Shown here: piece after piece, positions 13,221 to 16,119 of the stretch
Position numbering within the stretch: the first letter of the stretch is position 1
Layout: every line of letters begins with the position of its first letter
Notes under the pieces: generated by a model
The model's database searches: none
What the model saw: only the letters and a program-made list of their open reading frames with translations
Told to the model about the DNA's origin: nothing
Position numbers and translations under genes: made by a program
NCBI RefSeq assembly: GCF_003008425.1
Contig: NZ_PXOQ01000019.1
Span: 1 to 64,000, forward strand
Reading direction: 5' to 3'
DNA length: 64,000 nt
Source: Aurantibacter aestuarii
Lineage (GTDB): Bacteria > Bacteroidota > Bacteroidia > Flavobacteriales > Flavobacteriaceae

Positions 13221-14039
13221 TTAGAAGGCGTTTATAGTCTGTCTAATTTTAGTAAGGTTAGTAAGTAAGGCTTCTAAATTATCTAAGTGTAGCATATTTG
13301 CGCCATCACTTTTAGCATTTGCTGGATCAAAATGGGTTTCAATAAATAAACCATCTACATGGTTTACAACTCCTGCACGTGCAATAGTTTCAATCATATC
13401 CGGACGTCCACCAGTAACACCAATACTTTGGTTAGGTTGCTGTAAGGAATGTGTAACATCTAAAATAGTTGGGGCATACTCACGCATAGTTGGGATGCCT
13501 CTAAAATCTACAATCATATCTTGGTAGCCAAACATAGTTCCGCGATCGGTAATCCAAGCTTTGTTATTTCCAGCATCTTTAACTTTTTGTACCGCATGTT
13601 TCATGGCTTCTGGACTCATAAATTGTCCTTTTTTAAGATTAACCACTTTTCCAGTTTTTGCTGCAGCCACCACTAAATCGGTTTGTCGCACTAAAAACGC
13701 AGGAATTTGTAACACATCTACATATTGAGCTGCCATAGCTGCATCACTAACTTCATGAATATCAGTCACTGTTGGGACATCAAAAGTTTCAGAGACTTTT
13801 GCTAAAATTTCTAAAGCTTTTTCATCTCCAATACCTGTAAAACTATCAATTCTGCTACGGTTAGCTTTTTTAAAGCTGCCTTTAAACACGTAAGGAATTT
13901 GTAGTTTATTAGTTATGTTAACCACTTTTTCTGCAATGCGTAAAGCCATATCTTCGCCTTCTATAGCGCATGGTCCACATAGTAAAAAAAAGTTATTCGC
14001 ATTGGCATGCTTTATTTTAGGAATGTCTGATAATTGCAT
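13221..14039 (-). CDS. kdsA: 3-deoxy-8-phosphooctulonate synthase (Kdo-8-P synthase)
   Basis: 272 residues, normal length for KdsA. It condenses phosphoenolpyruvate with arabinose-5-phosphate to make Kdo-8-phosphate for the LPS inner core. Visible family blocks: LLCGPCAIEGEDMA (phosphate/PEP binding), FKGSFKKANRS, VTDIHEV, NLKKGQFMSPE, WITDRGTMFGY, VDFRG and VTGGRPDMIE. An asparagine (NLKKG area, KAW for the metal Cys position) cannot be resolved by eye, so metal dependence is left open. ATG preceded at 18 bp by a TATCTTTG -7 box. First gene of a unit with the outer-membrane protein. Confidence 0.96.
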   Translation of the reverse strand: MQLSDIPKIKHANANNFFLLCGPCAIEGEDMALRIAEKVVNITNKLQIPYVFKGSFKKANRSRIDSFTGIGDEKALEILAKVSETFDVPTVTDIHEVSDAAMAAQYVDVLQIPAFLVRQTDLVVAAAKTGKVVNLKKGQFMSPEAMKHAVQKVKDAGNNKAWITDRGTMFGYQDMIVDFRGIPTMREYAPTILDVTHSLQQPNQSIGVTGGRPDMIETIARAGVVNHVDGLFIETHFDPANAKSDGANMLHLDNLEALLTNLTKIRQTINAF

Positions 14040-14065: not shown

Positions 14066-14251
14066 CATAATTTCATATCTAAGTTAGGTATGTTTATGCG
14101 TTTAGAAGTTTATTTGTTTAGCCTTTTATAAGCTACGAGTTTTGTTTTTTAGATTTTTTAAATAGAAAACTATTTGAATAGTTATGTCTATCTCACTTGC
14201 GGAAAATAGTTATATTAGAGTTATAAAAATTGTATTATAGGATTATCTTTA

Positions 14252-14262
14252 CGGGATATAAG
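14252..14262 (+). repeat. 11-bp direct repeat CGGGATATAAG, left copy
   Basis: Identical to 15908-15918; together they bound a 1.67-kb AT-rich segment with two small genes between kdsA and typA. Could mark an insertion, or be chance. Confidence 0.4.
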
Positions 14263-14355
14263 GAGCCCTAAACTTACTATATCCAGATTTATTTACGGGA
14301 TATGAGTAATAAAATTAATTATATAACGAGTTGTAAAACATTAAAAAAACAATTA

Positions 14356-14943
14356 ATGAGAATATTTAATCGTCTCATATTAGTAATACTAAATACATTC
14401 TTATTTATCTCATGCAATGATGTAAATAAAAGTAAGGAAATATATAAGTCTAGAATAATTGAGAACGATACGACCTATCAAAAAGAAACCTACATTTATT
14501 TTCTTAAAAACAAAAAAGAAGTAAATAAAATATATAAAGATAGTATATACACGGGAGTTATAGCATTTAATAGTTTGCTGGATACGGTTACTACTGAATT
14601 ATATGAATTTGAAAAGTATCCGAACAGAGGAATATTGTTTTATAAAACCCAAAATCACAAAAGAGAAATTTCACTGTTGGATAAGCAATTAAATGGAAAA
14701 GTTTCTTCTCATGATTTATTAAAAGATTTTAAAAGCAAGAATAAACTAGATACATTATATGCAATTTCAAGTGACAAAATTCCAATTTTTGGTTTAAAAT
14801 TTAATGAAGTTGGTACTCATTATATTAATGGAATTGTAGAAGATTTTGTTCATATTAAAACGTCAGATACATCAAAAGTGAGATTAATTTCAAAAGATAT
14901 TATTATATCAACTAGCTTTGAGGTTATTGAGCCTGATTTGTGA
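14356..14943 (+). CDS. Hypothetical small lipoprotein
   Basis: 195 residues from the ATG at 14356; an ATG 18 codons upstream lies in the TTTACGGGATAT repeat and would bury the signal peptide, so I prefer the later one. MRIFNRLILVILNTFLFISC is a lipoprotein signal with lipobox FISC. The mature part is lysine-rich, without a family I recognise; strands such as RGILFYKTQNHKREISL suggest a beta-rich fold. Codon use is more AT-biased than in kdsA or typA. It lies in the island bounded by short direct repeats, so recent gain is plausible. Confidence 0.65.
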   Translation: MRIFNRLILVILNTFLFISCNDVNKSKEIYKSRIIENDTTYQKETYIYFLKNKKEVNKIYKDSIYTGVIAFNSLLDTVTTELYEFEKYPNRGILFYKTQNHKREISLLDKQLNGKVSSHDLLKDFKSKNKLDTLYAISSDKIPIFGLKFNEVGTHYINGIVEDFVHIKTSDTSKVRLISKDIIISTSFEVIEPDL

Positions 14944-15019
14944 GAGAATAATTAGGATAGTTAAATTAATAATTTTGCTTTAAATTTTAGTAAAAAACGG
15001 ACTAAAAAAGAAAAAAACG

Positions 15020-15160
15020 TTTTACAACAAAGTATATATTTAATTGCTGCTGATTTCCTACCGGAAATCTTTGCTCTTTTATTATATTTAGTTTATGCTA
15101 GCTAAATCCTGCGGATTTAGGCCAGCAACTAAACATACACAAAACGTTGTACACAATTAA
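15020..15160. repeat. Imperfect inverted repeat with two internal hairpins (cassette-boundary-like)
   Basis: Outer arms: 15031-15049 (AGTATATATTTAATTGCTG) pairs imperfectly with 15123-15140 (CAGCAACTAAACATACAC). Inside are two perfect hairpins, GATTTCC-TACC-GGAAATC (15052-15069) and CTAAATCC-TGC-GGATTTAG (15102-15120). The right end continues to AACGTTGTACACAATT. It recalls the folded recombination sites of gene cassettes in shape, but it lacks canonical integron core sites. Confidence 0.55.
15146..15155 (+). repeat. 10-bp inverted repeat GTTGTACACA, left copy
   Basis: Reverse complement of 15896-15905 (TGTGTACAAC). The pair flanks the gene at 15262-15894, the right copy starting one base after its stop codon. 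Confidence 0.5.
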
Positions 15161-15261
15161 CTCACTCAACAGCAAACTTTACTCATTGAAAATTAAGATT
15201 AACTAAATCTAGATTTAAAAGTTATTAAGTTATCTATAAATTTGAGTAAATTAATAAAATT

Positions 15262-15894
15262 ATGAAAAAAATAAAACTTATAATTTTTCTCTTATTTCCC
15301 TTACTTATATTCGGGCAAAAAATAAATTATGAAGAATATCAAAGGGAGAGTTTTATAAAAGCAGAAAAAGCTCTTAAAAACTCAAACGGACTCGAAGCGT
15401 TGCATTATTTTCACACAGTTTGTATTTTAGATGTAAAGTCAGATATAGAAATTAAAGCAAAAGCAAAAATAGATTCTTTACTTCCTATTTATCAAAAAAA
15501 GGAATTGGAAAAATGGAAAGGAACTTGGAAGTTAAAACAAATAAAGACCAATCGATTTGACTATGAAAAAATTATAATTACTGAAAAAGAAATCTCGTTT
15601 TATAAAAAAGAAAAAGATACTACTTACTCTAGAAATGAAACAATTGAACACAAAAAATACGACCCTAATGATTTAATAGTTGATATTCATAGTGTCGAAT
15701 TTAAAAATAAAGAAATTTGGGAATTTAGTTTAAAAGAAAAAAACAATGAATTAAGACTTTTTCCAAACTTAAAAACACAATCAGATGGAACGACTTGGAT
15801 TCTTTTAGATGAACGTTCAATGATAAGAAACAAAGACGATAGAGAAAAAGCTTTAGCTGAAGAAATAAGAACTTATTATACAAAAATAAAATAA
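15262..15894 (+). CDS. Hypothetical exported protein
   Basis: 210 residues. Signal peptide MKKIKLIIFLLFPLLIFGQ, cleavage near residue 19. The mature protein has an N-terminal helical part (EYQRESFIKAEKALKNSNGLEALHYF, TPR-like) and a C-terminal strand-rich part with WKGTWKLKQI, resembling small lipocalin-like Bacteroidota proteins, but I cannot assign a family. Flanked by inverted GTTGTACACA/TGTGTACAAC, consistent with a mobile cassette. Strong AT bias. Confidence 0.68.
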   Translation: MKKIKLIIFLLFPLLIFGQKINYEEYQRESFIKAEKALKNSNGLEALHYFHTVCILDVKSDIEIKAKAKIDSLLPIYQKKELEKWKGTWKLKQIKTNRFDYEKIIITEKEISFYKKEKDTTYSRNETIEHKKYDPNDLIVDIHSVEFKNKEIWEFSLKEKNNELRLFPNLKTQSDGTTWILLDERSMIRNKDDREKALAEEIRTYYTKIK

Positions 15895-15895
15895 C

Positions 15896-15905
15896 TGTGT
15901 ACAAC
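15896..15905 (-). repeat. 10-bp inverted repeat TGTGTACAAC, right copy
   Basis: Reverse complement of 15146-15155; the copy begins just after the stop codon of the exported-protein gene, where a second cassette-like element seems to be cut short. Confidence 0.5.
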
Positions 15906-15907
15906 AC

Positions 15908-15918
15908 CGGGATATAAG
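15908..15918 (+). repeat. 11-bp direct repeat CGGGATATAAG, right copy
   Basis: Identical to 14252-14262. The intervening 1.67 kb carries two small exported-protein genes. From here to typA lies only dispersed-repeat copy 2. Confidence 0.4.
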
Positions 15919-16020
15919 TTATAAAATAACACCAATTAATATTCTAGTTCTTCTTTCTAAATTAACAACTCATATAAACTCTCCTAAACCAATCCTAATA
16001 AACTTTAAAATTAAAATCTA

Positions 16021-16119
16021 GCATTAGCGATAAAAGCGGCATCCTTTTTAAGTGCTTTAGACTTAAAAAGATACAGCGAATAGCGCGACCTTTTTACCGT
16101 TTTGTAAAAAGGAAATGCC
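16021..16119 (-). repeat. Structured dispersed repeat, copy 2 (inverted orientation)
   Basis: In element orientation: ends GCATT/AATGC, left hairpin CCTTTTTAC-AAAACG-GTAAAAAGG, shared block GGTCGCGCTATTCGCT, central hairpin TTTTTAAGT-CTAAAGC-ACTTAAAAA flanked by TATC and GGATG, then CCGCTTTTATC. The terminal pair differs from copies 1 and 3 (GCGTT/AACGC) by a compensating A-T for G-C change, and the hairpin arms differ in sequence but still pair. Lies 40 bp before the typA -7 box. Confidence 0.72.

Follow-up and report, generated by a model that had tools for sequence, protein, structure and literature searches.

An integron-like gene-capture system, common in flavobacteria, whose recombinase appears to differ from that of known integrons

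Which kind of element places two short genes of Aurantibacter aestuarii between mutually matching ends, with a foldable stretch of DNA separating them? The locus lies in a 64,000-nucleotide stretch (hereafter the window; contig NZ_PXOQ01000019.1, positions 1 to 64,000), one part of a genome of 2.9 Mb in 19 contigs. A first-pass annotation made from the sequence alone had described a single unit beginning at 15020, with a folded inverted repeat upstream of the gene at 15262 and inverted 10-bp ends on both sides, and had suggested a cassette mobilised by an unknown recombinase. The folded inverted repeat is real, positions 15019-15155 comprising imperfect outer arms and two inner hairpins. The inverted ends are equally real, GTTGTACACA at 15146-15155 and TGTGTACAAC at 15896-15905, the latter one base past the stop codon TAA (15892-15894) of the open reading frame 15262-15894. 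While the unit is indeed cassette-like, its extent has to be revised: the gene before it likewise sits in a cassette, whose matching ends are located at 14330 and 15019-15028, so that the unit begins at 14330 and not at 15020, and forms an array of two cassettes.

The array is flanked by kdsA (13221-14039, minus strand) on the left and a typA-like gene (from 16194) on the right, both named by eye from the sequence; all array features are on the plus strand. Its left boundary is the attI-like core ATATAACGAGTT (14321-14332; motif ATATAA[CT]NAGTT), a copy of the system's attI-like motif, the recombinase being encoded on another contig. Around this boundary lies a "pad" resembling an integrase tail plus attI region (14243-14329, left edge by eye), one of ten in the genome, together with a weak, possible remnant of the last integrase codons (14228-14284; tblastn with the tail of the integrase of locus L174, 19 aa at 53%, E 9.2). 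Cassette 1 (14330-15145) starts with GTTGTAAAAC and has the exactly matching 10-base end GTTTTACAAC at 15019-15028, followed by its own attC-like site. Its gene (14356-14943) encodes a protein with a lipoprotein-like N-terminus, as judged by eye; the listed open reading frame (14302-14943) begins at 14302, that is, beyond the cassette boundary. The inter-cassette attC-like site spans 15019-15155, with R'' at 15019-15028 and R' at 15146-15155. Its connection to a gene, as first proposed, stands, but by integron logic the owner is the upstream gene and not the gene at 15262. Cassette 2 (15146-15905) likewise has exactly matching 10-base ends, GTTGTACACA and TGTGTACAAC, around a gene (15262-15894) for 210 aa with a signal-peptide-like N-terminus by eye. 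At the right end of the array (15896-15955), what comes after R'' is a degenerate end or an end of a different kind, in which our covariance model R1 detected no complete attC-like site (11.2 bits, E 0.045 with filters off). Lacking a complete right site at cassette 2, the window array may be a dead remnant.

The two gene products gave no match in NCBIfam (E <= 0.1) or Pfam (E <= 0.01). In one other genome of the genus, the conserved block preceding typA follows kdsA after ~350 bp, compared to ~1980 bp in the window, and neither pad nor cassettes nor such genes occur at the kdsA-typA place of this sister species. Past AAC, the right ends of the window array (15906-15940) and of the loci L249 and L252 are similar by eye (near AMCRRRATATAAGYWATAAAA), resembling part of a pad and not a full attC-like site. 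A Flavo-1 RNA (RF01705) is located at 16016-16094, after the window array; a similar sequence apparently follows the array on contig C5 (right end of L249, by eye), which may be chance.

The structure at 15020-15160, further copies of which had been named as the first thing to look for, recurs in the genome as ~51 sites linked to genes. By simple alignment, bases 2-140 of a 251-base query showed 74% identity to a second genomic place (C4:1158390, E 1.6e-11), with traces elsewhere. The covariance model, built from 21 sites of this genome, detected 41 gene-strand sites at E <= 1e-4 in nine stretches (window, end of contig C4, C11, end of C7, start of C9), or 38 after counting contig overlaps once. 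Thirteen further sites (E <= 1e-5) were found in nine more stretches around dispersed attI copies. The window site 15019-15155 scored 102 bits, but had itself been used, among the 21, to build the model. Contig C11 is a cassette array throughout, and the end of C4 is another array. One identical 654-bp stretch is common to the ends of C7, C11 and C4, while C11 and C9 begin with another cassette that they share over 653 bp and that recurs, over 564 bp, where C6 ends. These shared stretches may be repeated cassettes or assembly overlaps; the repeats at contig ends probably led to the assembly breaks.

On C7 a cassette with the exact ends GTTGTGTTT/AAACACAAC (L036:12859-15428, G000:C7) carries a type II restriction-modification set of control protein, SinI-type endonuclease and C5 methyltransferase, and another cassette gene (L005:7949-8956) matches a DNA gyrase B domain (E 3.5e-15). 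Past the right end of the C4 array (L005:1412-2371 and 524-1371), an open reading frame has an Arm-DNA-bind_5 N-terminus as its sole Pfam match, and one neighbouring frame matches an integrase SAM-like domain.

The first-pass annotation had proposed to check for tandem arrays of short genes and for a tyrosine recombinase gene; both are present, and arrays adjoin the recombinase gene. The enzyme of 392 aa is encoded at 40091-41266 of C7 (L036:8092-9270), a platform on a contig separate from that of the window. Behind the gene come CATATAACAA joined directly to GTTGTAAAAC and, after that, eight sites on the same strand as the gene, the final one truncated by the contig end. With the IntI model TIGR02249 the C7 enzyme reached 210 bits, below the cut-off of 265, and in a search of the whole genome nothing exceeded this cut-off. 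With NF040815, the XerA model (named "site-specific tyrosine recombinase/integron integrase"), it reached 222.4 bits, marginally above the cut-off of 220. Between two conserved catalytic blocks, 12/12 family enzymes have 58-59 residues; of 21 other Bacteroidia enzymes, 20 have 58-63 (the one truncated row has 2); two Xer have 64 and 66, in contrast to 100 in 13/13 IntI. The length was taken from alignment columns for 48/48 rows, and judged by this alignment the IntI-specific insert is absent from the C7-type recombinases.

At its N-terminus the C7 recombinase carries a predicted extra domain of ~78 residues (1-78). The solved XerA chains (PDB 4a8e, 5hxy), which together with the XerA profile are its best matches, align only from residue ~94-101 of the C7 enzyme onwards and therefore lack this domain. 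Foldseek gave 0 matches for it at E <= 0.001. Profile searches matched HARP in 1/13 (E 7.8e-4) and 2/46 (best E 0.0015) and DUF5710 in 11/46, a weak lead towards kinship.

These results bear on where the enzyme comes from. It may belong to the integron lineage by descent, either as an insert-less relative of IntI or as the stock that gave IntI; this reading competes with an independent origin and not with an integron-type way of working. IntI is among the nearest relatives, both by the TIGR02249 score and by structure (IntI4, 2a3v, E 2.6e-58), and the anatomy of the sites is alike in outline. XerA nevertheless matches better, by profile, by the nearest solved structure (4a8e, E 1.6e-65) and with Foldseek (5hxy, 1.1e-16 vs 1.7e-14 for 2a3v). 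In the trees the IntI rows form their own clade (100/99, 100/100), its junction with the Bacteroidia enzymes is not settled, and support for the family enzymes as a single group is modest (83/57). We regard common descent as a serious candidate whose probability is somewhat below even.

Arrays and recombinase are associated well beyond this genome. The same recombinase occurs in Algibacter onchidii (locus L182) and in G145 of the same family. Among 299 sampled genomes of the family, sites were found in 254 (E <= 1e-5) and recombinase relatives in 192 (E <= 1e-40); both occurred in 184, sites only in 70, the recombinase only in 8 and neither in 37. The overlap numbers were obtained by comparing the two genome lists by hand, and at most 11 scored candidates were counted as sites per genome. 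That 70 of the 254 site-bearing genomes have no recombinase relative at E <= 1e-40 counts against an integron-type reading. Since 20 array regions (L113-L132) had been picked because sites were already seen there, plus a recombinase in ten, they provide no unbiased linkage test; three analyses start from the recombinase instead. In the 1.5-kb flanks of 30 recombinase genes, that of C7 included, 23 sites were found in 19 loci, every one downstream and on the same strand. The best 80 named recombinase loci yielded 62 sites in 24 loci, 62/62 on the recombinase strand, 60 of them downstream and 2 upstream (both in L224). When pairs of cassette ends were located without the model, the 234 kb downstream of the recombinase contained 72 and the 429 kb upstream contained 7; on the downstream side, the opposite strand had 8.

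The junction behind the gene is also conserved. The motif ATATAA[CT]NAGTT stands within 250 bp after the integrase stop codon in 29/31 close relatives and in 0/740 shuffles, so that an attI-like site lies beside the integrase, at which cassettes would be inserted. In the remoter recombinases (6 of the 37 in total) it was found at the junction in 0/6, a further point against the integron-type reading. Exact cassette ends also occur outside Flavobacteriaceae, for example in Arundinibacter, Rufibacter and a Pedobacter MAG. With blastn of the four large arrays of this genome against loci of other genomes, no shared cassette was recognised among the matches listed > 250 bp. Recombinase relatives were observed on plasmids of Chryseobacterium, Persicobacter, Arenibacter, Flagellimonas, Pontibacter and Rufibacter; a relative at E <= 1e-30 is also present in 14 phage records, with less than 80% of the query covered in each.

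This linkage also bears on whether the window is simply an ordinary integron remnant of the CALIN type, on which a canonical IntI acts or once acted, the linked recombinase family being irrelevant. Arrays without IntI are common according to the accessible part of PMC8618304, and canonical IntI does exceed the cut-off in 105/395 genomes of the phylum. The present genome is not such a case, and of the 108 phylum genomes with an IntI match none belongs to the same family and one to the same class, while the arrays are linked to the other recombinase. The default of IntegronFinder 2.0 for a CALIN, in the part of PMC9024848 available to us, is at least two attC sites with the integrase absent; in the window, a single full site is accompanied by a degenerate end. 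We consider an ordinary CALIN very unlikely.

In integrons, both ends of a cassette derive from one circular site and match, whereas the halves of a linear site derive from different cassettes. This relation was examined in 322 complete sites from 25 sources in 15 genomes, 16 incomplete ones among 338 hits having been set aside. R' agreed with R'' of the same cassette at all six variable bases in 247/290 cases, compared to 13/320 for the two ends of the same linear site and 48/1349 for other sites sampled from the array. Among the 247 agreeing cassettes, pairing of the ends reaches position 14 in 197 and collapses at position 15 (22/247). The AAC and GTT cores are present in 320/322 sites, which thus combine the cores and the paired cassette ends of attC-type sites. 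Of the neighbouring pairs, 43/290 disagree in at least one of the six bases; 30 agree in fewer than five, and among 25 listed, 23 span > 1 kb, so that a missed site may be hidden inside these long discordant pairs. Agreement within a cassette but not within a site is the pattern that circular cassettes leave when they are opened at GTT. MITE-like transposon copies with terminal inverted ends, moved by a transposase, would share the inverted 10-bp ends and the dispersed copies, but fixed transposon ends would not vary between cassettes and agree within one, nor would the tandem copies in one orientation be expected, making this explanation extremely unlikely.

Folding of the sites points to one strand. 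As single-stranded DNA, the bottom strand of 15019-15155 folds with z = -3.97 (0/200 shuffles as good) and the top strand with z = -3.30 (2/200). In 150 sites (149 distinct) from 14 relatives, 96.1% of the L stem cells are paired, compared to 79.5% in shuffled and at most 40.3% in slid alignments, keeping in mind that aligned relatives lean towards the structure and paired columns of a model built from this genome. Double changes in the L stem number 270 vs 64.5 in shuffles, with 0/500 shuffles as high. Two other covariation measures were unremarkable, namely pairs with double changes (9 vs 7.0, 13/500 shuffles as high) and further pair types (18 vs 17.9, 311/500). Among 2384 stem cells, A·C on top, corresponding to G·T on the bottom strand, occurs 368 times and the reverse 2 times. 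Two stem columns, both outside the paired columns of the model, have A·C on top in 148 and 149 of 149 sites. The bottom strand is the more stable one in 143/149 sites, by 3.25 kcal/mol in the mean, and the R stem exhibits the same G·T bias at position 11 (192/247). An extra base at alignment column 128 was found in 21/150 sites. As the A·C mismatches of the stem turn into G·T pairs solely when read on the bottom strand, the sites look as if this is the strand that folds. Intergenic RNA structures such as terminators or regulatory RNA, without any recombination, would account for the covarying stem, but their probability is close to negligible given that the sites remained without an Rfam match when the gathering cut-off was applied (for L006 also at E <= 1), that the stem favours the strand opposite the genes and that RNA leaves the matching of ends across a gene unexplained.

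Taken from sequence, matching cassette ends, a covarying stem, a bottom-strand bias, an attI motif and the linkage of recombinase and arrays are in place. Very probably, the window contains a two-cassette array of an integron-type system whose cassettes are handled by a tyrosine recombinase. The cassettes would be circular units, usually of one gene each. In the circle, R'' after the gene would pair with R' before the gene to form one folded site, and the tyrosine recombinase would recognise the folded bottom strand of this site. Strand exchange would then take place at the GTT core, and the cassette would enter the attI motif (ATATAACNA followed by GTT) or another site. The acting enzyme would most likely be the 392-aa C7 recombinase, working in trans on the attI copy of the window. 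The original idea of a cassette moved by a recombinase has thereby gained the copies, their linkage to genes, the tandem arrays and a recombinase gene; the mobilisation itself, including circular intermediates, is what we infer from these sequence features.

Action in trans concerns all dispersed pads. The pattern ATATAACNAGTT occurs 17 times in the genome and its reverse 4 times; a 39-bp pad pattern with <= 3 mismatches occurs at 9 places (reversed control 0), and a tenth copy is more diverged. Behind 9/10 pads stands a cassette whose end matches (with a single mismatch in one case); at the remaining pad, L254, a matching end is absent, although a site lies ~0.8 kb further on. Among the matches listed to L174, five pads have 81-86% identity over 94-125 bp spanning the end of its integrase gene and attI, and the window pad (14270-14333) has 78% over 64 bp (E 1.5e-7). 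Pad L252 retains 34 tail codons (68%, E 9e-10), the sole significant integrase tail among the pads of this genome; the tails at five other pads, including that of the window, are individually non-significant (E 0.06 to 9.2). Most pads have a common left edge by eye. Resembling integrase tail plus attI over ~100 bp, the pads look like attI copies or remnants; several integrons may have left them behind, or they may have been copied and spread as a unit. Of the six tyrosine recombinase places in the genome, the C7 enzyme is 46% identical to the L174 integrase over its length, two Xer genes reach 27-28% and three places have no match. As only the C7 enzyme is closely related to the L174 integrase, the pad cassettes would depend on it in trans; the presence of other tyrosine recombinase genes counts against the integron-type reading.

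Similar to integrons (IntI/attC/attI, CALIN), the system has cassettes arranged in tandem and all oriented the same way, AAC/GTT core triplets and ends that pair in a circle. It also shares folded sites of two stems split by unpaired spacers, a bottom-strand bias and an attI-like site beside a tyrosine recombinase gene. In known integrons the recombinase gene is usually divergent from the cassettes and the R stem of attC has 7 bp. Here, in contrast, the gene points the same way as the cassettes and the R stem has ~14 bp; the bottom strand has G·T wobbles that hardly vary, and an invariant extra base is absent. The recombinase lacks the IntI insert (58-63 vs 100 residues) and has an extra N-terminal domain, and ten attI copies are dispersed in one genome. 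In short, the system works like an integron, and its enzyme lies outside IntI both by model score and by insert. We know of no cassette arrays with XerA-type recombinases.

Insertion of cassettes away from the integrase is described for the secondary sites termed attG (Loot et al. 2024, as quoted in the accessible part of PMC12901181). The present cassettes likewise occur at genome places distant from the integrase, but unlike attG the pads resemble integrase tail plus attI over ~100 bp. Reviews, in their accessible parts, list Bacteroidota among integron-bearing phyla. For Bacteroidetes proper, the available part of the IntegronFinder 2.0 paper gives one complete integron, in Salinibacter (PMC9024848), and in the accessible part of a study of attC by taxon no Bacteroidota model is named and the word stem "Bacteroid" is absent. 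Within the open-access PMC literature, preprints being outside this scope, no description of the present system was recognised among the matches listed.

It appears that this is an integron-like gene-capture system, common in flavobacteria, with a recombinase apparently different from that of known integrons. A wider proposal, which we hold with evenly balanced confidence, is that most Flavobacteriaceae, and also other Bacteroidia, possess a second kind of integron. It would consist of an XerA-like, insert-less recombinase with its own N-terminal domain and of bottom-strand sites distinguished by an R stem of 14 bp together with conserved G·T wobbles; the recombinase would serve many chromosomal attI copies in trans. 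IntI is thought to require its extra insert for reading folded attC sites. If the proposal is true, the same site logic without the insert would represent another way to read folded sites and would make this question testable. It would further mean that searches for canonical IntI have missed a large flavobacterial route of gene capture, with sites in 254 of 299 Flavobacteriaceae genomes.
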